Below are positions 41,806 through 51,878 of a DNA stretch of 64,000 bases, piece by piece. Location of the stretch: assembly GCF_900110645.1 (NCBI RefSeq), contig NZ_FOFB01000006.1:1-64000 (forward strand). Direction: 5' to 3'. A program made the translations under genes and the position numbers. Within the stretch, counting starts at the first letter, position 1, and each line of letters begins with the position of its first letter. The notes under the pieces are model-generated. The model searched no databases. It was given only the letters and a program-made list of their open reading frames with translations, and had not been told where the DNA came from. The stretch is from Neolewinella agarilytica (lineage in GTDB: Bacteria; Bacteroidota; Bacteroidia; Chitinophagales; Saprospiraceae).

Positions 41806-42172
41806 AGTAGGTAAGCGCTATTGAACCCAATCCGTTCGGACTTGGGAGTAAGGAAATTTAAAGGGGCCGTAATGGACGGTTGCAATTAACACGCAACGAT
41901 CCAAAAATGTACAAATGAGGAATGATTAATATTTGCAATGTTGAAAAAGGGCTTTCCACGGGGCGATTGAGCTTGCTTTCCAGGCTTCCTCGGCACCTGC
42001 GTCTGCGCCCCCTGCTTAGCTTGCTGGAGTGCTTCGGGATATACGAACCGGGCAGGAGTATTACTGAGAGCGTAACCTGCTTTTTTAATAATCCGCTCAG
42101 CCACTACTTTTCTTGCTTTATACCGAAGGATTGTACCTTAACGAAGGTCAAACCACCGATTAAGAAACATTG
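41806..42172. other. Gene-free divergent region before the ECF sigma gene
   Basis: This 367-base stretch separates marC-like (minus) and the sigma gene (plus). It holds one dispersed-element copy and AT-rich DNA before the operon (TACCTTAA near 42132). A minus-strand frame at 41886-42104 overlaps the repeat and has no family features, so I do not call it. Confidence 0.6.
41993..42009 (+). repeat. Dispersed GCACCTGCG element, copy 17
   Basis: GCACCTGCGTCTGCGCC, upstream of the metal operon. Confidence 0.7.
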
Positions 42173-42742
42173 ATGCCGCAAACTACCGATCATGAGCTGC
42201 TCGCTGCCATTGCCAACCGCAATGGAGAAGCCCTGCGCGATCTCTATGGCCGGCATGCTGACCGGGTATACAACACCGCTCTCAGCTACCTCCAACGGGA
42301 AGCGGATGCTGAGGAGGTTACGCAGGATGTCTTTACGAAAATCTGGCGCTCGGCCGCCGGCTTCAAGTCGGAAAGCCAGGTAACTACCTGGATATACCGG
42401 ATAACCGTAAATACGTCCCTCACGGCGATCAAGAAACGGGATCGGTACCGTTTTCTCAGTGGTGCACCATCGCACCATGATCCACCAGATTTTAGCCACC
42501 CAAGTGCTAAGATAGAGGATGCAGAAACGAACCAGACCATTTTTTCGGCGATCTACAGCTTAGCGCCCCGGCAGAAAACGGCTTTTGTGCTCAGTTACGT
42601 TGAAGAATTACCCCGGCAGCAGGTTGCTGACATTATGGGCCTTTCCCTTAAGGCCGTAGAGTCGTTACTGATGCGAGCCAAAAAAGGCTTGAAAGACAAG
42701 TTGAAAAATGATCATCCCCATCTCGGGAAAAGTAAACAGTAA
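42173..42742 (+). CDS. ECF RNA polymerase sigma factor (CnrH-like position)
   Basis: A 189-residue ECF sigma factor. Region 2 (LYGRHADRVYNTALSYL; EVTQDVFTKIWRSAAGF; TWIYRITVNTSL) is followed by region 4 with LAPRQKTAFVLSYVEELPRQQVADIMG, of which the helix-turn-helix is QQVADIMGLSLKAVES. It is the first gene of a long plus-strand operon. The next two genes are a small membrane protein and a periplasmic metal-sensor-like protein, the same arrangement of parts as CnrH/CnrY/CnrX. It probably controls the copper-related genes that follow and itself. The start at ATG 42173 is preferred to the overlapping TTG. Confidence 0.9.
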   Translation: MPQTTDHELLAAIANRNGEALRDLYGRHADRVYNTALSYLQREADAEEVTQDVFTKIWRSAAGFKSESQVTTWIYRITVNTSLTAIKKRDRYRFLSGAPSHHDPPDFSHPSAKIEDAETNQTIFSAIYSLAPRQKTAFVLSYVEELPRQQVADIMGLSLKAVESLLMRAKKGLKDKLKNDHPHLGKSKQ

Positions 42743-42745
42743 AAG

Positions 42746-43036
42746 ATGAATACAGACGGACACGATGAATTAGATTACGCCATGGAGCACCTGAAGGGGC
42801 TCAGACGAGCCAGCCCTCCGCCGGGTCTTCTGAGTCGGATTGAAGACCGGATCGCTCAGGTGGATGCTTCGATAATTTCCATGCCGCAATGGCGAATGAT
42901 TGCCGCGGCCGCAGTTTTAGTGCTGGGGGTTAATGTTTATGCCCTGGTCAATTTTTCGAGTGGCAATAATGCCCTGTCAATGGGAGATGGATATGCCGCA
43001 ACCGAGCTGGTGTCTAATTATCAATATTACGAATGA
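42746..43036 (+). CDS. Small single-pass protein, probable anti-sigma factor
   Basis: A 96-residue protein with a short cytoplasmic N-terminus (residues 1-52, ELDYAMEHLKGLRRASPPPGLLSRIEDRI given in part), one membrane helix (residues ~53-70, MIAAAAVLVLGVNVYALV) and a short outer tail. It begins three bases after the sigma stop and overlaps the next gene by four bases (ATGA). Position and topology fit a CnrY-like or other membrane anti-sigma factor that holds the ECF sigma, although no zinc-binding anti-sigma motif is present. The role is inferred from context. Confidence 0.7.
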   Translation: MNTDGHDELDYAMEHLKGLRRASPPPGLLSRIEDRIAQVDASIISMPQWRMIAAAAVLVLGVNVYALVNFSSGNNALSMGDGYAATELVSNYQYYE

Positions 43037-43500
43037 TGAATAAGCTGAAAGTCTACCAAATTGCCACGATCGGCCTGCTTTTGCTTAATGTAGTCTTACT
43101 GGCATTTATCATTTTTGCTCCAAAGCCGGGTGGAAATGGCCGCCCGCTACGGGTAATGGAGCACTTTGGATTCGATGCCGCTCAAGACGAAAAATTTCTT
43201 GATTTGGCGAAGGCACATAAGGCACAAATCAGAGCGGCTAATGACCAGCAGGCAGAACTGCTGCAGGAATATTTTTTGCAATTGACGACCGATGAGGCGG
43301 CTAATCCAGGGCCACTGCCTCCGGGCATCGGTACATTGGAGCGAGAAAAAATTAATAGTACTTACGAACATTTCCTTGATATTAAAAAAATGCTCCGGCC
43401 AGAACAGCAGGCTGCTTTTCCAAGCTTTGTTGAAGCTGCTCTGCAGCGGATTCTTTTGATGGAAAATGAAGAAAGGCCACGTCCACCGAAGGATAGATAG
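43033..43500 (+). CDS. Periplasmic metal-sensor-like protein (CnrX/Spy/CpxP type)
   Basis: A 155-residue protein with one N-terminal membrane anchor (residues ~8-28) and a helical periplasmic domain rich in His, Gln and Glu (VMEHFGFDAAQDEKF; LAKAHKAQIRAANDQQAELL; YEHFLDIKKMLRPEQQAAF). The helical hairpin pattern and the late LRPEQQAAF motif fit the heavy-metal-resistance (PF13801) and Spy/CpxP group. In CnrYXH, the equivalent protein binds metal and releases the anti-sigma factor. Its overlap with the anti-sigma-like gene supports a shared complex. The metal ligands are not proven by sequence. Confidence 0.75.
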   Translation: MMNKLKVYQIATIGLLLLNVVLLAFIIFAPKPGGNGRPLRVMEHFGFDAAQDEKFLDLAKAHKAQIRAANDQQAELLQEYFLQLTTDEAANPGPLPPGIGTLEREKINSTYEHFLDIKKMLRPEQQAAFPSFVEAALQRILLMENEERPRPPKDR

Positions 43501-43531
43501 AAGAGCATCGTCTAAGGAAAAAAAGCTATCA

Positions 43532-44350
43532 ATGAATAAATTTTTTCTCCTCCTTCTTCCCCTCTGTTTGTTTATCCTGGGCTCCTGCCAGGACGATGAT
43601 GATAATGGCACCGGCATGGATACTGATCCTGCAGAACTACACGCAGCATTTGCTGAATTCGATACGGATAATGTAAGCATTACCCTCAGCGGAAACGAGG
43701 TGAACATTGAGTCCAACGGCCTGCCCAACCACACTTCTCCCTACTGGTCCAATACGACGGAACGATCTGCGGTTGACCCCATGGGGAATACGCTGGCAAC
43801 AGAAGCTGCTGCCTCCAACCATCCCTTATTCGTAGCGCCAACATTAACCTCTTTTGAGGATATGGCTCCGGGGAATATTGACGATTTCAACGGTTCCTAT
43901 TCGCTAACCGTTCCGGCCAGTCCGGAGTTAGCCTCAGCGTCTTCTGCTACCGGGCTTGGTGCCATCGGCATTGCCGTTAGTGGTGCCATGATTTATAACG
44001 ATGAGGAAGGCCCCAACGTACCACTTGATAATGCCGTTGTTTCGCTGGATTATACCGCCGCACACACCGGCCCGCAGAGCTACCACTATCATTTGGAAAC
44101 CAAAGCGTGGTCCGAAGACGATGATAAACTCATCGGGATCATTGCCGACGGTTTTTTCCTCTACGGCCGTAAGTGTAGTGCTACCGGGACTTACCCCACT
44201 GATCTGGACGCATCTGGCGGACACAGCTCCACTACGCAGCACACGACCGAGTCAGAGTACCACTACCACATCCAAAATGATCTTTTCCTGGGGGCTTACT
44301 ACATTCTCTTTCCGGGGGATTATCAGGGAACGCCTAATGCGATTAATTAA
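43532..44350 (+). CDS. YHYH-domain lipoprotein 1
   Basis: A 272-residue lipoprotein with signal peptide and lipobox LGSC, then an Asp-rich linker (QDDDD). The YHYH domain carries two copies of the name motif, QSYHYHLET and EYHYHIQND, plus acidic and His-rich turns. YHYH proteins are secreted and lack an assigned biochemical role; the dense His suggests metal binding (inference). It follows the sensor trio by 32 bases and precedes the MORN-like lipoprotein by five, so it belongs to the operon. The start at 43532 gives the signal peptide. Confidence 0.85.
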   Translation: MNKFFLLLLPLCLFILGSCQDDDDNGTGMDTDPAELHAAFAEFDTDNVSITLSGNEVNIESNGLPNHTSPYWSNTTERSAVDPMGNTLATEAAASNHPLFVAPTLTSFEDMAPGNIDDFNGSYSLTVPASPELASASSATGLGAIGIAVSGAMIYNDEEGPNVPLDNAVVSLDYTAAHTGPQSYHYHLETKAWSEDDDKLIGIIADGFFLYGRKCSATGTYPTDLDASGGHSSTTQHTTESEYHYHIQNDLFLGAYYILFPGDYQGTPNAIN

Positions 44351-44354
44351 ATCA

Positions 44355-44951
44355 ATGACAAGCTTTTGCCGTATCCTTCAAATGAACGCTTTATATCCGC
44401 TGCTGGCGCTTTCCCTGTTAATGACAGGCTGCCACCCTGCGCCAGTCAGTACGGCTGTAATCCGTAAAGAGCTGCTTACTCATGCACCCACTGAAGGAAT
44501 CACTTTATATAAGGGAGAGCCTTTCTCGGGTATGGCGGTGGAAGAATATGCAGACGGAACCCCTGCCGTGGCTATTGATTATGTTAAGGGTAAAAGAGAA
44601 GGGTATTACCGTAAGTGGTTTGCGGATGGTTCCCTGAGTTTTGAATCGCAATACCTTGCTGGCCGCCAGCACGGAGAAACCAGAAGTTGGTGGAAAAACG
44701 GTAACCTGCGGACGCATAACCGAATGGAAAAAGGCATTGCGAATGGCCTGCAGGAACAATGGTATAAAAGCGGGGCTAAATTTAAAGCGATGCAACTGGT
44801 GAATGGCCAGGAGGAAGGACTCCAGCAATCCTGGCGGGAGAACGGCAAATTATACAACAACTATGAGGCCCGCGACGGGCGCATTTTTGGCTTGAAAAGG
44901 GCTAACCTGTGTTTCAGCCTGGAAAACGAAGACCTTGTTTATGTGGAATAA
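44355..44951 (+). CDS. MORN/YwqK-like repeat lipoprotein
   Basis: A 198-residue lipoprotein: signal with lipobox LLMTGC, then repeated strands of the MORN/YwqK type (PFSGMAVEEYADGTPAVAIDYVKGKREGYYRKWF given in part; GRQHGETRSWWKNGNL; GIANGLQEQWYKSGAKF; GQEEGLQQSWRENGKL). Databases name the family after a proposed antitoxin, but in Bacteroidota envelope operons it more likely forms an extended beta-sheet for protein or surface contact. It starts at 44355 (or ATG 44382), five bases after YHYH gene 1, and its end overlaps the SCO gene by 11 bases. Confidence 0.8.
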   Translation: MTSFCRILQMNALYPLLALSLLMTGCHPAPVSTAVIRKELLTHAPTEGITLYKGEPFSGMAVEEYADGTPAVAIDYVKGKREGYYRKWFADGSLSFESQYLAGRQHGETRSWWKNGNLRTHNRMEKGIANGLQEQWYKSGAKFKAMQLVNGQEEGLQQSWRENGKLYNNYEARDGRIFGLKRANLCFSLENEDLVYVE

Positions 44952-45588
44952 GTTCCTTCTTTTTAGTTTCTGTTGCGTTTGTCTGGCGGGCTGTTCGCCT
45001 GATGAGCCAGCAGGCTATGACCTTCCCTATTATGCGGACGCGTCCTTCACGCCACACTGGCTGGATGCCGGGGACCTTTCTTTGGACGAGTTCCACCAGA
45101 TAAGCCCGTTCAGCCTGCTTAATCAACTGGGGGATAGTATTACGGAGAAAAACCTGACGGGGAAGGTTTATATAGCGGACTTCTTTTTCACGGCCTGCCC
45201 CGGTATTTGCCCTAAGATGACCACGAACATGGCCGTTTTGCAGGATTCTTTCCGCTTTAACCCGGAAGTAATGTTATTGTCCCATTCCGTTACCCCAAAG
45301 TATGATTCGGTGTCCGTATTGATGGAATATGCCGAAGCCAAGGGGGTGAAGGCGGACAAATGGTGGTTGCTGACGGGGGATCGCGACCAAATCTACCGTC
45401 TGGGACGAAAGGACTATTTTGTAGAAGAAGACCTGGGGCAGCAGAAAGAAAAGGACGATTTTTTGCACACGGAAAACTTCGTGCTGATTGATCAGAACCG
45501 ACACATCAGGGGCATTTACAATGGCCTGAACAAAGCCTCCGTCAATCAATTGATTCTGGACGTTCGTACCTTACTCTCCGCTAAATAA
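44941..45588 (+). CDS. SCO1/SenC/PrrC family copper chaperone lipoprotein
   Basis: A 215-residue lipoprotein of thioredoxin fold. Signal peptide with lipobox CLAGC, then the SCO metal motif FTACPGICP (Cys86, Cys90) and a candidate third ligand His in FLHTENFVLID. SCO proteins deliver copper to the CuA site of cytochrome oxidase or act in copper and thiol homeostasis. The overlap with the preceding gene and the six-base gap to the MbnP gene place it firmly in this operon. ATG 44941 is used rather than the upstream TTG. Confidence 0.93.
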   Translation: MWNKFLLFSFCCVCLAGCSPDEPAGYDLPYYADASFTPHWLDAGDLSLDEFHQISPFSLLNQLGDSITEKNLTGKVYIADFFFTACPGICPKMTTNMAVLQDSFRFNPEVMLLSHSVTPKYDSVSVLMEYAEAKGVKADKWWLLTGDRDQIYRLGRKDYFVEEDLGQQKEKDDFLHTENFVLIDQNRHIRGIYNGLNKASVNQLILDVRTLLSAK

Positions 45589-45594
45589 ATCTGG

Positions 45595-46272
45595 ATGTAT
45601 CGAGGTCTTTTATGGCTGTGCTTTCTCCCGTCACTACTGTTTGGGCAGCGGACGGATAGCTTGCGGATCGACTTTCGGCCACTGCTGAATGGAGTGGCTT
45701 TAGAGCTTGAAGAAGAAGGCGGCGCCAGCGCAGGTGCAAGGGAAGTTGAGGTGCTGCGTTTTTACCTCTCCGAATTACAATTGTTAGAAGGCGAAGAGGT
45801 CGTCTTCGCTGAAGAAGATCATCATCACCTGATCGATGCGGCGCAGGTGGCTTCCCTGCAACTGCCACTTACCTTGCCGCCGGGGCTTCGTTACGATGGG
45901 CTACGCTTCACCCTCGGTGTTGATAGCCTGACAGCCGCCAGCGGCGTCTTCGGCGGAGACCTCGACCCTACGAACGGAATGTACTGGACCTGGCGTAGCG
46001 GCTACATCAACTTTAAACTGGAGGGGACCTCGCCGGATTGCCCGGCGCGGAAGCAGCGCTTCCAGTTCCACGTCGGGGGCTTTCAGGCACCGTTTAATTC
46101 AGAACGACGGGTGACCCTTGCCATCAAGCCCGCCAGAAGCATTTCCATCATCATCGATCTGGATAGTTTCTTCGCAGCCACTGACCTTAGCCAGCAATAT
46201 CAGGTTATGAGCCCGGGCGAACTTTCAATGAAAGTGGCCGACCGGCTAACGAGGATGTTTCGGGTGGAATGA
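45595..46272 (+). CDS. MbnP-like copper-binding protein
   Basis: A 225-residue secreted protein (signal peptide ending LLFGQ) with the MbnP fold marks: RIDFRPLLNGVAL, RFYLSELQLLEG, FTLGVDSLTAASGVFGGDLDPTNGMYWTW, and SGYINFKLEG. In characterised pairs, MbnH oxidises a conserved MbnP tryptophan to kynurenine, creating a copper site. Here the candidates are Trp131 and Trp133 in MYWTWRSGY. An internal dispersed-element copy (45721-45737) encodes GGASAGARE. The matching di-heme protein is three genes downstream. Named families are from established knowledge; the modification in this organism is inference. Confidence 0.88.
   Translation: MYRGLLWLCFLPSLLFGQRTDSLRIDFRPLLNGVALELEEEGGASAGAREVEVLRFYLSELQLLEGEEVVFAEEDHHHLIDAAQVASLQLPLTLPPGLRYDGLRFTLGVDSLTAASGVFGGDLDPTNGMYWTWRSGYINFKLEGTSPDCPARKQRFQFHVGGFQAPFNSERRVTLAIKPARSISIIIDLDSFFAATDLSQQYQVMSPGELSMKVADRLTRMFRVE
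45721..45737 (-). repeat. Dispersed GCACCTGCG element, copy 18
   Basis: GGCGCCAGCGCAGGTGC inside the MbnP-like gene, coding for GASAGA. Confidence 0.65.
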
Positions 46273-46380
46273 TGTTGCTTGCTCTTTTTTAGTCGGACCA
46301 CAGGCTTTTTATCTGCGCGCAAAGGATTTTTAGCCAATAGGTGTCAAAAGAGTATTCTACACATCAAAAACACCACGCTG

Positions 46381-47436
46381 GTGAAACACATATACTACTC
46401 TTTATCTCTCCTTTTACTGGTCTCTTGTGCGCAAAATCCTTCGGGTAAGCAAAAAGCAGAAGGGGATTCCGTCACGGTTGATCAGGTCGTCATAGACGTA
46501 GATCCCAAACTTTTTCTGGAGCCCAGTTTAGCAGAAGCGGTCTCTACCGTTGCCTGCACACTCTCCGACGGAACAAAAACGACCTGTTATAAAATAGTCT
46601 CTTCCTCGTCTCCATCGGATCATCAGATGGGCCCCTGGTGCCCGACCAATATCAGTGATGGTGCCGATGCCGGCGGTGTCTGGATTGAAGGAGGGGAGAT
46701 TTACGATGTGGACGGTGCTTTCATCGAAAATCTGGCTGCTTTCTATGATGATGATACCTGGCAGATGTACGACGCCAATGGTGATATCTTCAGGACGAAA
46801 ACTAAAGAAGACTGTGCCAACGCCGCTAACCCTAACGTTGGTGCTGAGTACAAGAATTTTTGCGTGGAGTGTCTGCCATCCTATTTGTCGGATGTAACCC
46901 AGGAATACCTGATCCCGGTAACACCGGTACGGACGGGAACCACCCAGGCCTTTGGCGGCGGCGGTCGTCCGGGTGGCGGCCCTGGCGGCCCTGGCGGCCG
47001 ACCCGATGGTCCACCACGGGAACGTCCGGCAGACGGCGCTGGTGGGCGTCCGGGCGGCGGCATGATGGTGCGGGGAGTGGCCTTTAACGGTATTCGCTTC
47101 GACGGCCCGGCGCCAACCGATGCCATTCTTGGAGCTTACACGCTGGCTCCTTTTGATGACGCAGGTGGGCATATTAACCTGCACGCCGGTTACCACTACC
47201 ACGCAGCAACGGGCGTGTCTACTAAAATTCCCCAGGCCGATGGTCATGCCGCCATGATCGGATACGCCATGGATGGCCACGGAATTTACGAAAGGCTGGA
47301 CGCCAACGGGAAAGAAGCTACTGACCTGGACGATTGCCGGGGCCACTACGATGAAGTCCGGGGCTACCACTACCACGTGGATAAAGCCGGAGCTAATAAT
47401 TTTATCAACTGCCTGAGCGGCGCTTACGCTGAATAA
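46381..47436 (+). CDS. YHYH-domain lipoprotein 2
   Basis: A 351-residue lipoprotein. The likely start is GTG at 46381, giving signal MKHIYYSLSLLLLVSC (lipobox Cys16). The body has several Cys (VACTLSDGTKTTC; MGPWC; CVECLPS), a Gly/Pro/Arg linker (GGGGRPGGGPGG) and the C-terminal YHYH domain with AGYHYHAATG and RGYHYHVDKAG around DGHGIYERLD. The DGHGI and DDCRGHYDE segments are typical of this domain. It lies 108 bases after the MbnP-like gene; a frame upstream of the GTG is open but does not look like protein. Confidence 0.85.
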   Translation: MKHIYYSLSLLLLVSCAQNPSGKQKAEGDSVTVDQVVIDVDPKLFLEPSLAEAVSTVACTLSDGTKTTCYKIVSSSSPSDHQMGPWCPTNISDGADAGGVWIEGGEIYDVDGAFIENLAAFYDDDTWQMYDANGDIFRTKTKEDCANAANPNVGAEYKNFCVECLPSYLSDVTQEYLIPVTPVRTGTTQAFGGGGRPGGGPGGPGGRPDGPPRERPADGAGGRPGGGMMVRGVAFNGIRFDGPAPTDAILGAYTLAPFDDAGGHINLHAGYHYHAATGVSTKIPQADGHAAMIGYAMDGHGIYERLDANGKEATDLDDCRGHYDEVRGYHYHVDKAGANNFINCLSGAYAE

Positions 47437-47465
47437 GCCGCCATTCACCATGAAAAATTCCACCC

Positions 47466-47735
47466 ATGAAACCGCTCTTCCTGCTCATTATCGTTTTTGT
47501 TAGTATTGCTGCTGTTCTCTTCCTGAAGCAGGCTGATGAAAACGAACGCTTGCCACTAACGGAGAACAGTGTTTATGCCATTAGCCTTGAGCCAGAGGAG
47601 TCCGGGTATCAACTGAATCAGCCGGAGGACGTTTCTACGGGGGTGGTCATATTCTCTTTGCTTACGGTTACGGTACTGGCAACGGCCCTTACTTTTGGCG
47701 GACTGAAATATTTGTTTAGCAGCATAACTGTATGA
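47466..47735 (+). CDS. Small two-helix membrane protein
   Basis: An 89-residue protein with an N-terminal hydrophobic helix (residues 3-20, LFLLIIVFVSIAAVLFL), an acidic middle (ADENERLPLTENS; LEPEESGYQLNQ) and a C-terminal helix (STGVVIFSLLTVTVLATALTFGG given in part). No family recognised. It overlaps the MbnH gene by four bases, so the two are coupled. It may anchor or assist the di-heme enzyme, but this rests on position alone. Confidence 0.65.
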   Translation: MKPLFLLIIVFVSIAAVLFLKQADENERLPLTENSVYAISLEPEESGYQLNQPEDVSTGVVIFSLLTVTVLATALTFGGLKYLFSSITV

Positions 47736-48709
47736 GGCAGGGAGTGATCTTGCTGGTGGTGGTAATGATGAGTGGACTGGCCTTTACGCTGTCGTCTCCC
47801 CCTGGCATTGCGTATCCGGATCACTTTCCAACTACGGCCTACGACTTCAGGGCGCATCCTCTCGATTCGGCAAAAGTTCAGCTTGGCCGTCGACTTTTCT
47901 ACGATGAGATTCTTTCCGCTGACGGGACGATCTCCTGCGCAAGTTGCCATTCCCCTTATAATGCTTTTGCCCACACGGACCACGACCTGAGCCACGGGAT
48001 AAATGATCAGATCGGTACACGTAATGCGCCCGCCCTCTTCAATCTGGCCTGGTCTACGTCTTTTCACCACGACGGCGCTCACCACAGTATTGAACTTCAG
48101 CCGTTGGCGCCCATCAGTCATCCCGCTGAAATGGGAAGTAGCATCGGCGATATCGTCCGCCGGCTTAGTGAGCACGCGCAATACCGGCAAGCCTTCTCAG
48201 AGTCCTTTGGGGACAGTCTCGTAACCGGAGAGCGGGTGCTCAAAGCACTGGCGCAGTTTCAGCTTACCCTCGTTTCTGCCGGGGCCAAATACGATCGGGT
48301 GCAGGCGGGAAAGGATACTTTTTCGGTGCAGGAGCAAAAGGGCTACCAGCTATTTCAGACCTACTGTAATGATTGCCACTTTGAGCCCTTGTTCACAACC
48401 GGCGGCTTTGCCCGTAATGGCTTGCGGGTGGATACGACGCTGAATGACTTCGGGCGCATGATGATCACGGCTCTGCCGGAAGACAGCCTGCTGTTCAAAA
48501 TTCCAAGCCTGCGCAACCTGAGCTACACCCATCCGTATATGCACGACGGCCGGTTCCGAAAACTTCGGCAGGTGCTTAAACATTACGCCAGCCGGGACGT
48601 CAGACCCATGCCGATATCTGCCAACGAGCAATCAGACATAGTCGCCTTCTTGTTGACACTTGATGATCGGGACTTTGTCTTTAACCGTAATCATGGCTTC
48701 CCTCACTAG
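47732..48709 (+). CDS. MbnH/MauG-like di-heme cytochrome c peroxidase family protein
   Basis: A 325-residue periplasmic protein with a signal segment (residues 5-20) and two c-type heme motifs, CASCH (Cys69-His73) and CNDCH (Cys212-His216). It has the CcpA/MauG core LGRRLFYDEILSADGTISC and the later PSLRNLSYTHPYMHDGRF. It is a member of the bacterial cytochrome c peroxidase superfamily. With an MbnP-like protein three genes upstream, it is most likely the MbnH-type enzyme that uses a bis-ferryl state to oxidise a Trp in MbnP. Ordinary peroxidase activity is the alternative. Confidence 0.9.
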   Translation: MRQGVILLVVVMMSGLAFTLSSPPGIAYPDHFPTTAYDFRAHPLDSAKVQLGRRLFYDEILSADGTISCASCHSPYNAFAHTDHDLSHGINDQIGTRNAPALFNLAWSTSFHHDGAHHSIELQPLAPISHPAEMGSSIGDIVRRLSEHAQYRQAFSESFGDSLVTGERVLKALAQFQLTLVSAGAKYDRVQAGKDTFSVQEQKGYQLFQTYCNDCHFEPLFTTGGFARNGLRVDTTLNDFGRMMITALPEDSLLFKIPSLRNLSYTHPYMHDGRFRKLRQVLKHYASRDVRPMPISANEQSDIVAFLLTLDDRDFVFNRNHGFPH

Positions 48710-48788
48710 TTCGTCCGCCGGGTGGGTAGCGACCTTTCCGAAGGTTTTTCCTAAAGAAGCAGTCCTATCAAAAAAAACACACACTTAC

Positions 48789-50162
48789 ATGCTAAGATAT
48801 TCCACCCTCCTTTTCACTTTGCTCTTTACTTCCTTACTCTGCACCAGCGTCCGCGCCCAACTCTCGCCCGCCATTACGAGTTGGCTGCAGAACAATACGG
48901 AAACGGGGACCTACTACGTGGCGGGTAATTCCGACCTTATTGAGAATAATATCCTGGTCAACTGCCAGCAGGTAGCCTACGACGATGACTTCGTATACGT
49001 TACGGCAACGGGCGTTCCTGCTTATCCTACCGGCCCTTTTCAGGACCGTAACCCTTCTCAGGCCGCCAACCAGAATGGCGTCTATAAAATCCCACTCGTC
49101 CCGGTACTAAACGAAGGAGAACCAATTACGACCACCGGTGGCAATATTGGGATTTTTATTAATGGTGTGGCTCTGTTTGATTACCGCGACGGAGTAGCCT
49201 GGAACCCACAGACAAATGCACTGTGCGGCGGCCCCGGTAACGCCACATGCCCGGGTGGCCCGCGTGCGAGCCAGGCCTGGAACCGGGACGCCGTTCCCGC
49301 CGAACGCGAAGGCTTCGACTGTGCCAAAGGGCACCCGGCTAACGGTAATTATCATCACCATCAGAACCCTTCGGCCTTCAAGCTGGACCTGAACGTCACC
49401 TCCGAGGTTTGCAACCTCTACGACGCCGAAGGCCTCTATGCTATCGACAGCACGAAGCACGCCCCCTTGATCGGCTTCGCCTACGATGGCTTCCCGATCT
49501 ACGGGGCTTATGGCTTCAAAAATGCAGACGGAACGGGCAAGATCACCCGCATTAAATCCGGCTACCGCCTGCGCGATATCACCGAGCGGACCGAGCATGC
49601 CGATGGCACCGATGTGGATGACGGGCCGGCGGTCAGTGATACCTATTTCCTCGGCTATTTCCGGGAAGACTATGAATTCATTGCCTCTGATGATGAGGAT
49701 GTGCTCGATGAGCACAATGGCCGCTTTTGCGTCACACCGGAATATCCGGAAGGAACCTATGCATACTTTGCGACGGTAAACGAAGACTGGACCTCCGCCT
49801 ACCCTTATGCCGTGGGGCCCACTTTTGCCGGGGTGAGTGAAAACCGTAGCGGAGCAACGGTGCCTGCCGGAGCAACAGTTTATGAGGGAACCACCTCCGT
49901 TGCCGGTTTTGCTGAAGGCGCCAACATCAGCGTTTTTCCCAATCCGGCAGCGGACCTGATAGCAGTGCAATTGCTCGGCCTGGCCGAAACAGATTATACC
50001 GTGCAATTGGTCAGCAGTGATGGAAAACTGGTGGAAGAAAAAAGTATTCGGTCCGGACAAACGATCGCCTACTTTGATACGCAAACACTTTACCGGGGTG
50101 TCTATTTTGTACGTATTTTGGGCCAGAGAGGTGAGGTGACGCGCAAGGTCATCGTAGAATAG
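48789..50162 (+). CDS. Secreted YHYH-domain protein 3 with type IX sorting tail
   Basis: A 457-residue protein: signal peptide (LLFTSLLCTSVRAQ), N-terminal beta domain, Cys-rich segment (GGPGNATCPGG; DCAKGHPANG), YHYH-type domain with the variant NYHHHQNP and FAYDGFPIYGAYGF. A C-terminal type IX sorting domain of ~75 residues follows (ISVFPNPAADLI; YRGVYFVRILG; KVIVE). It should cross the outer membrane by the type IX system, unlike the two lipoprotein paralogues. The signal-peptide cleavage region is encoded by a dispersed-element copy (48841-48857). It closes the co-directional run, 80 bases after MbnH. Confidence 0.87.
   Translation: MLRYSTLLFTLLFTSLLCTSVRAQLSPAITSWLQNNTETGTYYVAGNSDLIENNILVNCQQVAYDDDFVYVTATGVPAYPTGPFQDRNPSQAANQNGVYKIPLVPVLNEGEPITTTGGNIGIFINGVALFDYRDGVAWNPQTNALCGGPGNATCPGGPRASQAWNRDAVPAEREGFDCAKGHPANGNYHHHQNPSAFKLDLNVTSEVCNLYDAEGLYAIDSTKHAPLIGFAYDGFPIYGAYGFKNADGTGKITRIKSGYRLRDITERTEHADGTDVDDGPAVSDTYFLGYFREDYEFIASDDEDVLDEHNGRFCVTPEYPEGTYAYFATVNEDWTSAYPYAVGPTFAGVSENRSGATVPAGATVYEGTTSVAGFAEGANISVFPNPAADLIAVQLLGLAETDYTVQLVSSDGKLVEEKSIRSGQTIAYFDTQTLYRGVYFVRILGQRGEVTRKVIVE
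48841..48857 (+). repeat. Dispersed GCACCTGCG element, copy 19
   Basis: GCACCAGCGTCCGCGCC, encoding the signal-peptide end CTSVRAQ. Confidence 0.65.
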
Positions 50163-50279: not shown

Positions 50280-51878
50280 ATGAAATTTACCGGCCTCTTA
50301 TTACTTGCTTTTTTCTCTTTTGCCGGTGCAAGAGCCCAGGAGCCCCCGAATATCCTCCTCATCATCGCTGATGACCTTGGTGTTGATCGTCTGAACGGAT
50401 ACCACGACGGAAATCTGATGGCCATTACACCAACTTTGGATAGCCTGAGAGCTGCTGGTGTAACGTTCACCAATGCTGCGGCTTCTCCCGTTTGCTCGCC
50501 TACGCGAGCGGCGATTATGACCGGAAAGTACGGGGTTAAAAACGGTGTGCTCGGGGTGCCGGGAAATCTGGTAGATACGGACGAGTCCGTTTTCGATGAA
50601 TTAACCGCCCGAACGGGGAATGCCTATGCTGATGCACTCATTGGGAAGTGGCATTTGTCCAGGCGTGCCAGTAATAACGTACCACTAACTTTTGGGCCGG
50701 ATACTTACGACGGATACCTGAGCGGGGCCCCGGCAGACTACTACAACTGGGCACGAATTCAGGATGGGATGTCCGTGCCATCAACGGAGTATGTTACTAC
50801 TGCACTGTCTAATGCGGCAGGTGAATGGATCGCTGAACAGTCGAGCCCCTGGTTTCTCTGGCTGGCGCACGCCGCACCTCACAGCCCTTACCACGTGCCG
50901 CCTGCCGGCACCTATTCGGTGGGGAACCCTACGAATAACATCCGCCAATACGTGGCAATGGTGGAAGCCCTGGACTACGAAACCGGCCGCCTGCTGGCCG
51001 GGCTCACACCTGAAGTGCGGGAGAATACACTGGTCATCTTCGTCGGAGACAACGGTACGCCCGGAAACGTAATGCAGGATTATCCTACGGGCCACGGTAA
51101 AGGCTCCGTCTATCAAGGCGGCGTTCGGGTCCCTCTCATCGTTGCGGGTAAGGGAGTGGAGCGCGCCGGAGAGCGGGAAGATGCCCTGGTGCACGTTACT
51201 GACCTGCACGCCACCATCCTGGAGGCTGCCGGCGCGGAGCTGCCGGGCGGGCGGTTTAACAGCCTGAGCTTTTACCCTCTCTTAGGCGCCAACCATGAGG
51301 AAGCAGAAAGCAGGGCCTACAATTACGTCGAGGTCGAAAATACCAACGGTGGTTCTGGCTGGGCCATCCGCAATGCGCAGTATAAGCTCCTCCGTTTTGA
51401 GGATGGCCGGGAGGAAATGTATGACCTGCTGGTGGATTCCTTTGAGGTGAATAATCTGTTGGCCGGAACGCTAACTGCCGAACAGTTGGCCGCTGAGGCT
51501 GATCTGGAGGCGGAAGCTTCGGTCATCCGCACGGGCTGGTCTTGCCGGGATCTGATCCGGAACGGCGAAGAAACAGGTATTGACTGCGGGACGATGGACT
51601 GCGGCGCCTGCACGACCAGCGCCGGAGAGCCGGATGTTGCTGTAGACCTCTTGCTGTACCCCAACCCGACGACGGACTTTTTTGTGGTGGATGCTTTAGG
51701 GGAGCGCATCGAGTCCGTCCGGGTCTTTAACGCTGGCGGGCAGTTACTACGGCAAGAAGAAGGCCACGGTATGCGGCTGTTGGAAGTGTCCGTTACTGGC
51801 TTGAAGCGAGGGCCTTTACTGGCGGAAGTTCGTACGGTGGATGGTGGGAGCCGGGTGATGAAGGTGGTGAGACGGTGA
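50280..51878 (+). CDS. Secreted sulfatase with type IX sorting tail
   Basis: A 532-residue type I sulfatase. Signal peptide (FSFAGARAQ), metal ligands in NILLIIADDLG, the formylglycine-forming motif Cys72-Ser-Pro-Thr-Arg76, GKWHL, HSPYH and DNGTPG. After the catalytic domain comes a Cys-rich block (CRDLIRNGEETGIDCGTMDCGAC, quoted in part as CGTMDCGAC) and a C-terminal sorting domain (LLLYPNPTTDFFV). Such enzymes desulfate marine polysaccharides or aryl sulfates. A formylglycine-generating enzyme is required and is not in this window. It may be the last gene of the operon or separate; 117 bases precede it. Confidence 0.92.
   Translation: MKFTGLLLLAFFSFAGARAQEPPNILLIIADDLGVDRLNGYHDGNLMAITPTLDSLRAAGVTFTNAAASPVCSPTRAAIMTGKYGVKNGVLGVPGNLVDTDESVFDELTARTGNAYADALIGKWHLSRRASNNVPLTFGPDTYDGYLSGAPADYYNWARIQDGMSVPSTEYVTTALSNAAGEWIAEQSSPWFLWLAHAAPHSPYHVPPAGTYSVGNPTNNIRQYVAMVEALDYETGRLLAGLTPEVRENTLVIFVGDNGTPGNVMQDYPTGHGKGSVYQGGVRVPLIVAGKGVERAGEREDALVHVTDLHATILEAAGAELPGGRFNSLSFYPLLGANHEEAESRAYNYVEVENTNGGSGWAIRNAQYKLLRFEDGREEMYDLLVDSFEVNNLLAGTLTAEQLAAEADLEAEASVIRTGWSCRDLIRNGEETGIDCGTMDCGACTTSAGEPDVAVDLLLYPNPTTDFFVVDALGERIESVRVFNAGGQLLRQEEGHGMRLLEVSVTGLKRGPLLAEVRTVDGGSRVMKVVRR

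Follow-up and report, generated by a model that had tools for sequence, protein, structure and literature searches.

A predicted envelope metal-response operon of Neolewinella agarilytica that joins an ECF sigma factor and MbnP/MbnH-like and SCO proteins to YHYH proteins

The operon and its conserved gene neighbourhood

The window analysed in this work is a stretch of 64,000 nucleotides from contig NZ_FOFB01000006.1 of Neolewinella agarilytica, whose genome of 6.22 Mb is referred to here as G000. Located on its plus strand, at positions 42173-50162, are eleven co-directional open reading frames (ORFs) that overlap or are separated by short gaps, and that encode an extracytoplasmic function (ECF) sigma factor, a small membrane protein and a putative sensor (SIG, G2 and CNX), members of the SCO, MbnP and MbnH families, and three proteins with the YHYH domain (PF14240). 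In the accessible parts of the literature searched, the YHYH family has no established function, and it appears as a passing mention, in a link to host recognition, or in a prediction of hydrolase activity. The safest new claim of this study is that some of the YHYH genes share their promoter motif and their partners with an operon that combines ECF/CnrX-like and MbnP/MbnH/SCO genes. On balance, and with considerable reserve, we also consider that this operon is an envelope metal-response system, most likely for copper.

Pfam models were run on 19 window proteins (the cut-off for YHYH is 25 bits), and NCBI family models were also used. The original prediction, made from the sequence letters, had described the eleven genes; the ORFs were confirmed, with several starts revised, and the computed scores of the ECF sigma factor (E values of 3e-16 and 1e-13 for sigma-70 regions 2 and 4), SCO, MbnP, the di-heme CCP_MauG protein, the three YHYH proteins and a type IX secretion system (T9SS) tail were over the Pfam cut-offs. 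The lipoprotein described as MORN-like does show similarity to MORN_2, at a score below the cut-off. The genes are the following:

42173..42742, plus strand: ECF sigma factor (SIG); PF04542 and PF08281; the ATG start agrees with relatives
42746..43036, plus strand: G2, small single-pass membrane protein, CnrY-like by position, putative anti-sigma factor; one hydrophobic span, 49-73
43033..43500, plus strand: CNX, CnrX/Spy-like membrane-anchored helical putative sensor; conserved H62 and H113; profile A1
43532..44350, plus strand: YHYH-1 lipoprotein; PF14240, 43 bits; lipobox LGSC
44382..44951, plus strand: MORN_2-like lipoprotein; PF07661, 26.3 bits, under the cut-off of 29.6
44941..45588, plus strand: SCO1/SenC lipoprotein; PF02630, 89.6 bits, cut-off 22.8; CxxxC and H178
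45595..46272, plus strand: MbnP-family protein; PF20243, 135.2 bits, cut-off 27; W131xW133 and H159
46381..47436, plus strand: YHYH-2 lipoprotein, GTG start; PF14240, 35.5 bits; lipobox LVSC
47466..47735, plus strand: G9, small two-span membrane protein; hydrophobic spans 1-26 and 55-81
47732..48709, plus strand: MbnH/MauG-like di-heme protein; PF03150 (CCP_MauG), 170 bits, cut-off 25.6; two CxxCH
48789..50162, plus strand: YHYH-3 with a T9SS sorting domain; PF14240, 188 bits; PF18962, 46.9 bits, cut-off 27
50280..51878, plus strand: sulfatase with a CSPTR motif and a sub-threshold T9SS tail; PF00884, 149 bits; PF18962, 19.6 versus 27

The likely starts of YHYH-1 (43532), the MORN-like gene (44382), SCO (44941), YHYH-2 (46381, GTG) and YHYH-3 (48789) are revised ones, and leave gaps of 108 bp between MbnP and YHYH-2 and of 79 bp between MbnH and YHYH-3. 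The sulfatase gene starts 117 bp downstream of YHYH-3 and is probably the last gene of the operon, that would in this case extend beyond the eleven genes originally delimited. YHYH-3 is taken as T9SS cargo, since it carries the sorting domain PF18962 and the T9SS component SprA is encoded in the window genome. Generic sigma-70 and terminator scans gave results at chance level.

Conservation was surveyed in 100 loci around YHYH or CNX genes, in which all ORFs were scanned with family hidden Markov models (HMMs) made from the window proteins and these same loci; YH1, YH2 and YH3 are working names of the resulting YHYH families. A YHYH-MORN-SCO block was found in 26/100 loci and, without SCO, in five more; a MORN-like gene follows the YHYH gene in 31 loci. 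The block MbnP-(YHYH-2)-MbnH-YHYH-3 is present in 11/100 loci, two loci (L087 and L097) contain the same families in another arrangement, and MbnH-YHYH-3 is found without MbnP in four more: G002, G014, G332 (with a contig end near) and G007 (without one). Either block may follow the sigma/G2/sensor trio (seven loci each, with the window counted in both; in one of these loci, L122, the contig ends within the sigma gene). Both modules, which are found separately across Bacteroidota, are joined in the window operon; its gene order is seen over two contigs (L036 and L037) of G002, a metagenome-assembled genome (MAG) of Lewinella, and both blocks lie in one run in a Flavobacteriaceae MAG (L239). 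Gene order within the blocks varies among loci, and the G9 family has only two matches among the 100 loci, in the window and in G009.

A named set was formed by 80 loci, the best 80 of at least 580 confirmed YHYH-3 matches, so that its rates apply to close relatives of YHYH-3. Within 8 kb of YHYH-3, the 75 loci that do not duplicate earlier contigs contain MbnH in 62 cases, MbnP in 61 and CNX in 29; where at least 4.5 kb of upstream sequence is present, MbnP and MbnH are both found in 42/46 loci, with CNX too in 20. No other neighbour family occurs in more than 6 of at most 103 loci. The original prediction had proposed such a survey and had named the absence of conservation as evidence against itself; the partners do recur across Bacteroidota.

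In the phylum set of 296 genomes YHYH is present in 34, MbnP in 78 and both in 22. The two lie within 10 kb of each other in 7/21 genomes with both, the window genome excluded; random placement gave a mean of 0.30 and a maximum of 4 in 20,000 trials. That only 7 genomes show the link and that gene order varies could be taken as signs of an accidental neighbourhood without functional meaning; the linkage simulation, together with the promoter motif described below, makes this very unlikely, and we give it practically no credence.

Regarding the sensor, a search of the phylum set with a profile (A1) of 23 CNX members found YHYH in 11/12 genomes above 120 bits, and in three of the four (G220, G249, G212 and G206) that are outside A1; this is a biased test of co-occurrence, because A1 was partly drawn from YHYH neighbourhoods and holds their sensors. 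Less biased is the comparison within 60 relatives, G000 included, that contain CNX in 15 cases and YHYH in 23: YHYH is present in 12/15 genomes with CNX versus 11/45 without (p=0.0002) and, within the genus, in 9/10 versus 3/11 (p=0.006).

The genome encodes four YHYH proteins, three of them within the operon. Iyer and colleagues, in the accessible part of their report, predicted from three His and one Asp that YHYH is a Zn-dependent hydrolase (PMC7824862). In YHYH-3, residues His225, His232, His234, His267 and Asp276, among others, are kept in 103/103 ungapped aligned rows, with 11 further rows gapped. YHYH and a sulfatase are found in one ORF in six cases (G015, G024, G025, G029, G036 and L241; Pfam check in G025), and YHYH-3-type genes have a sulfatase gene downstream in G000, G002, G009, G013, G014, G261, G277 and the named loci L183 and L186. 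All this speaks for an alternative in which the YHYH proteins act with the sulfatase on polysaccharides, either as hydrolases that depend on a metal or as surface proteins that bind glycans, while MbnP, MbnH and SCO provide or handle the metal required; the handling of copper would in this case be at the service of an enzyme system of the surface. Nevertheless, a structure search with a YHYH model of modest confidence returned no solved relative and no hydrolase fold match, and among the loci examined the links of YHYH to MbnP/MbnH and SCO are commoner than that to the sulfatase. The same model matches viral YHYH models in BFVD, down to E 6e-13, and the YHYH-3 sequence gave nothing useful against PDB. 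We regard this alternative as unlikely, though deserving of attention; it overlaps the envelope metal-response reading except for the role of YHYH.

A promoter motif ahead of sigma and YHYH genes

Upstream of the sigma genes of the genus, GAAGGATT is found followed by 14 or 15 bases and GTC. The motif CGAAGGATT-N14/15-GTC was derived solely from sigma-gene upstream DNA, and the pattern tested was CG[AC][AG]GGATT-N14/15-GTCNA. Its sites in the operon are:

42124..42151, plus strand: ECF-type promoter-like site, CGAAGGATT-N14-GTCAA, 21 bp ahead of SIG; exact pattern match, alike upstream of the sigma genes of the genus
43487..43514, plus strand: promoter-like site with 1 mismatch, 17 bp ahead of YHYH-1; pattern search
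46320..46347, plus strand: promoter-like site with 1 mismatch, 33 bp ahead of YHYH-2; pattern search
48739..48766, plus strand: weak promoter-like site with 2 mismatches, 22 bp ahead of YHYH-3; read by eye

Given the sites ahead of YHYH-1 and YHYH-2, and the weak one ahead of YHYH-3, the cluster may have internal promoters. Exact sites precede YHYH-3 in G004, G007 and G014, and the fourth YHYH gene of G000 has a two-mismatch site approximately 20 bp upstream, in which the core GGATT-N14-GTC is intact.

In the first 100 loci the exact pattern was found ahead of 4/39 YH1, 3/23 YH2 and 6/44 YH3 genes versus 0/1446 background genes, and none of approximately 300 permuted patterns occurred at YHYH or sigma genes. 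In the named set the exact pattern precedes 9/80 YH3 and 2/17 G2 genes, 0/26 sigma genes and 0/555 background genes. For both sets together the background consists of 1440 genes taken solely from the first 100 loci, with at most 100 permutations; with no mismatch the motif was detected at YH1 4/41, YH2 3/25, YH3 15/124 and background 0/1440, and with at most one mismatch at sigma 11/49, G2 2/19, YH1 9/41, YH2 10/25, YH3 24/124 and background 3/1440. At this last level 43/190 YHYH genes overall carry the motif, the MORN, SCO, CNX, G9 and MbnH genes give 0/196, and permuted patterns reach a mean of 0.18 and a maximum of 5 versus 56 for the motif. In the first 100 loci it is present at 25/57 YHYH genes in sensor genomes versus 4/49 in others (p=3e-5), a contrast that shares some of the bias of A1, given that the sensor genomes are the CNX list of the 60 relatives plus the phylum genomes above 120 bits. 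Many of the motif-bearing YHYH genes are orphans, with no sigma gene beside them.

Two further counts were treated with caution. The loose pattern GGATT-N14/15-GTC occurs 9 times in the window versus a shuffled mean of 4.06, with 3/100 shuffles reaching 9; this enrichment is only mild, and therefore the motif claim rests on the gene-start tests. A first test of motif rate (19 genus genomes, 35 sites in those with the sensor versus 10 in those without, p=0.001) was discounted, since it included nine source sites of the sigma genes.

The motif is shared, as computed, by sigma and YHYH genes, and because of this sharing the original proposal that YHYH proteins are partners of the system is strengthened: the YHYH genes look like members of a sigma regulon, and SIG itself may read the motif.

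Further motif sites were detected 15 to 274 bp ahead of various non-YHYH genes. These include CCP_MauG genes in G000, G018 and G269 (L165:2247-3455, L151:1543-2850 and L284:5873-6925); a small gene pair in contig C48 of G000 (L168:2820-3812), the first without a Pfam match and the second LTXXQ-like below the cut-off; one gene each of the PAP2 and CotH families, also in G000; genes for thioredoxin-like proteins (G014 and G216) and for EF-hand lipoproteins (G216 and G220); and, in the last two genomes, gene clusters with CotH, VTC and DUF4956, with DUF2490 confirmed in G216. In the accessible part of one report, CotH, a polyphosphate polymerase and DUF4956 travel together next to Pel loci (PMC7112168). 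The CotH, VTC, DUF4956, DUF2490, PAP2 and EF-hand sites (L278, L279, L280 and L170, of G216, G220 and G000) could possibly belong to a part of the regulon concerned with the surface or with polyphosphate. For the CotH gene of G000, the G014 gene and window-type YHYH-3 genes the site falls inside the listed ORF, whose start was probably placed too far upstream; several other sites fall within genes. Both G000 (C34) and G009 (C210) also show a site close to a gene that is DUF748-like, with a score below the cut-off (L166 and L171).

Sensor block and copper-protein families

The original description of CNX as CnrX/Spy-like holds at the level of the profile, and its kinship to CnrX and NccX appears distant. 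Of the A1 members, 15/23 match Metal_resist (PF13801; E up to 1, best 7e-8), and against PDB the profile scores Spy at 3.6e-5, NccX (4clv) at 6e-4 and CnrX at 0.04. Residue H62 is kept in 49/51 CNX relatives and H113 in 42/51; H113 aligns with the His in the LVHVFEM stretch of NccX, which we take to be the position of CnrX His119. The metal ligands of CnrX are His42, His46, Glu63, His119 and Met123; only the His119 equivalent is seen kept in the CNX relatives, and the Met123 position is occupied by Ile, Val or Leu. The family HMM of G2 matched 19 ORFs. In layout, sequence membership apart, the SIG/G2/CNX block appears to resemble CnrYXH. The idea that sensors without both His go with the absence of MbnP was discarded, given that several sensors with both His are also without an adjacent MbnP gene.

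The score of Spy, above that of NccX, would fit a sigma system that responds, by way of a Spy-like chaperone, to stress of the envelope or of secretion, with no metal involved and with the copper proteins as part of a general envelope response; the motif ahead of thioredoxin-like, CotH and EF-hand genes and of the pair with the LTXXQ-like member also points in this direction. However, the two sensor His are widely kept, one of them at the CnrX/NccX His119 position, and we find this explanation rather improbable. The matches to NccX and CnrX would likewise suit a system for nickel/cobalt resistance like Cnr or Ncc, that we judge very improbable given that no efflux-pump family was found among the 19 window proteins scanned and that the genes present are those of copper-protein families.

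For the envelope metal-response reading, copper is suggested as the metal by the membership of the MbnP, MbnH and SCO families. SCO, numbered from the ORF at 44935, keeps C88 and C92 (CxxxC) and H178 in 28/28; MbnP keeps W131, W133 and H159 in 75/75 aligned rows, and MbnH has two CxxCH heme sites, CASCH and CNDCH. The MbnP-like and MbnH-like names given originally are supported by Pfam scores over the cut-offs, WxW and the heme sites, but both NCBI models are missed; MbnP scores 32.9 with the equivalog MbnP_like_WxW, whose cut-off is 140. Among the MbnH relatives, position 113 is occupied by Trp in 67/81, by Arg in 10 and by His in 4. A Trp of 6e1c, a methanotroph MbnH, aligns at the FxWDG position; the FxWDG Trp of MbnH has an inter-haem role. 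A second MbnP/MbnH group was observed in G000 (contig C32, L172:4110-7304), where MbnH has the Trp and MbnP is without WxW, the reverse of the window pair.

According to the accessible text of PMC3621798, the occurrence of MbnP/MbnH pairs extends well past the producers of methanobactin and, as of 2013, no data tied close MbnP homologues to copper. A structure search by sequence for MbnP and G2 gave no useful match. No MbnA, MbnB or MbnC family was found among the 19 window proteins scanned, and no genome-wide search was made for MbnB or MbnC. Later work reportedly established that MbnH oxidises a Trp of MbnP to kynurenine, and that MbnP then binds copper.

Proposed mechanism and comparison with known systems

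According to the mechanism that we propose, periplasmic CNX would use H62 and H113 to bind a metal ion, and metal-bound CNX would change its hold on G2, that would let go of the ECF sigma factor, in the manner of CnrX, CnrY and CnrH. Promoters of the form CGAAGGATT-N14/15-GTC would then allow the released factor to transcribe both its own operon and the YHYH genes located elsewhere. Among the products, MbnP would be a periplasmic copper protein in which the partner MbnH converts a tryptophan of WxW, by oxidation, into a copper ligand, SCO would be a thiol copper chaperone, and two YHYH lipoproteins and a third YHYH protein, exported to the surface through the T9SS, would take part in metal binding or in a metal-dependent surface activity.

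Several observations weigh against this reading. Regarding the sensor block, CNX of the window alone has no Pfam match up to E 1, Spy outscores NccX in the profile search, the His42/His46 pair of CnrX is not evident in the profile alignment, and the G2 profile found no match to CnrY in PDB. The window MbnH scores 183.4 with the NCBI MbnH model TIGR04039, below the cut-off of 362.85, yet this is its best NCBIfam match, and it shows FHHDG in place of FxWDG, with His113 for Trp. With at most one mismatch, 147/190 YHYH genes are without the motif, and MbnP (1/76) and MbnH (0/86) practically lack sites of their own; in 4/12 other genomes searched there is no strict site, and G000 has 9 sites versus 3 for a control pattern, from which it follows that some sites are due to chance and that single regulon members are uncertain. 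When the own sites of the sigma genes are left out, the genus genomes have 26 motif sites with the sensor versus 10 without (p=0.02). Outside the genus YHYH occurs in 3/5 genomes with CNX versus 8/34 without, which is not significant (p=0.13), and in G007 the block is split, with MbnP and MbnH-YHYH-3 on different contigs, neither of which ends there. Finally, the original interpretation is supported in part: the idea of YHYH proteins as partners of the system is strengthened by the conserved neighbourhood and the shared motif, copper as the signal and metal binding by YHYH are hypotheses drawn from family membership, and the wider motif set and the sulfatase link suggest a role that extends beyond copper.

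A more ambitious proposal, that we put forward as a speculation with a low chance of being right, is that Bacteroidota possess a YHYH regulon with an ECF sigma factor of the CnrX type dedicated to its control, a regulon in which the YHYH proteins are a new class of secreted copper-site proteins, matured like MbnP by a di-heme partner, and in which the metal state is tied to surface building through the CotH, VTC polyphosphate, EF-hand and sulfatase genes. In any case, the partner set and the shared motif give the YHYH family a testable regulator and a candidate metal; the operon also brings MbnP/MbnH next to a sigma/sensor block and T9SS cargo, and suggests a possible common control of the handling of copper and the building of the cell surface.

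As in CnrYXH and NccYXH of Cupriavidus metallidurans, the genes for a sigma factor, a small single-pass protein and a membrane-anchored helical sensor are present in one block. The cnr genes are arranged in the order Y-X-H; unlike this, the sigma gene is the first of the window operon. The His119 equivalent of CnrX is kept in 42 of 51 CNX relatives, and H62 lies near the position of CnrX Glu63. In contrast with Cnr and Ncc, the scanned genes of the window include no efflux pump for Ni/Co, and G2 is without a match to CnrY.

With the MbnP/MbnH pair (TIGR04052, TIGR04039, GenProp0940) the operon shares the neighbouring genes for MbnP and a di-heme MauG-like protein, with WxW in 75/75; it differs from this pair in that the window proteins are under both NCBI cut-offs and the window MbnH has His for Trp at FxWDG. 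The union of MbnP/MbnH with a sigma/CnrX-like block and YHYH genes finds no mention in the accessible text of PMC3621798. In CorA/CorB and MopE/SACCP of methanotrophs, a surface copper protein is made with a di-heme peroxidase and kynurenine is found at the copper site, as stated in the accessible part of PMC3912023. Unlike these, the predicted surface protein of the window operon is a YHYH protein. The same domain (PF14240) is found in marine phages and giant viruses, where, according to the accessible text of PMC7824862, it is often fused to tail or baseplate parts; in contrast, the YHYH proteins of the window are lipoproteins or T9SS cargo, encoded under a sigma-type promoter motif.

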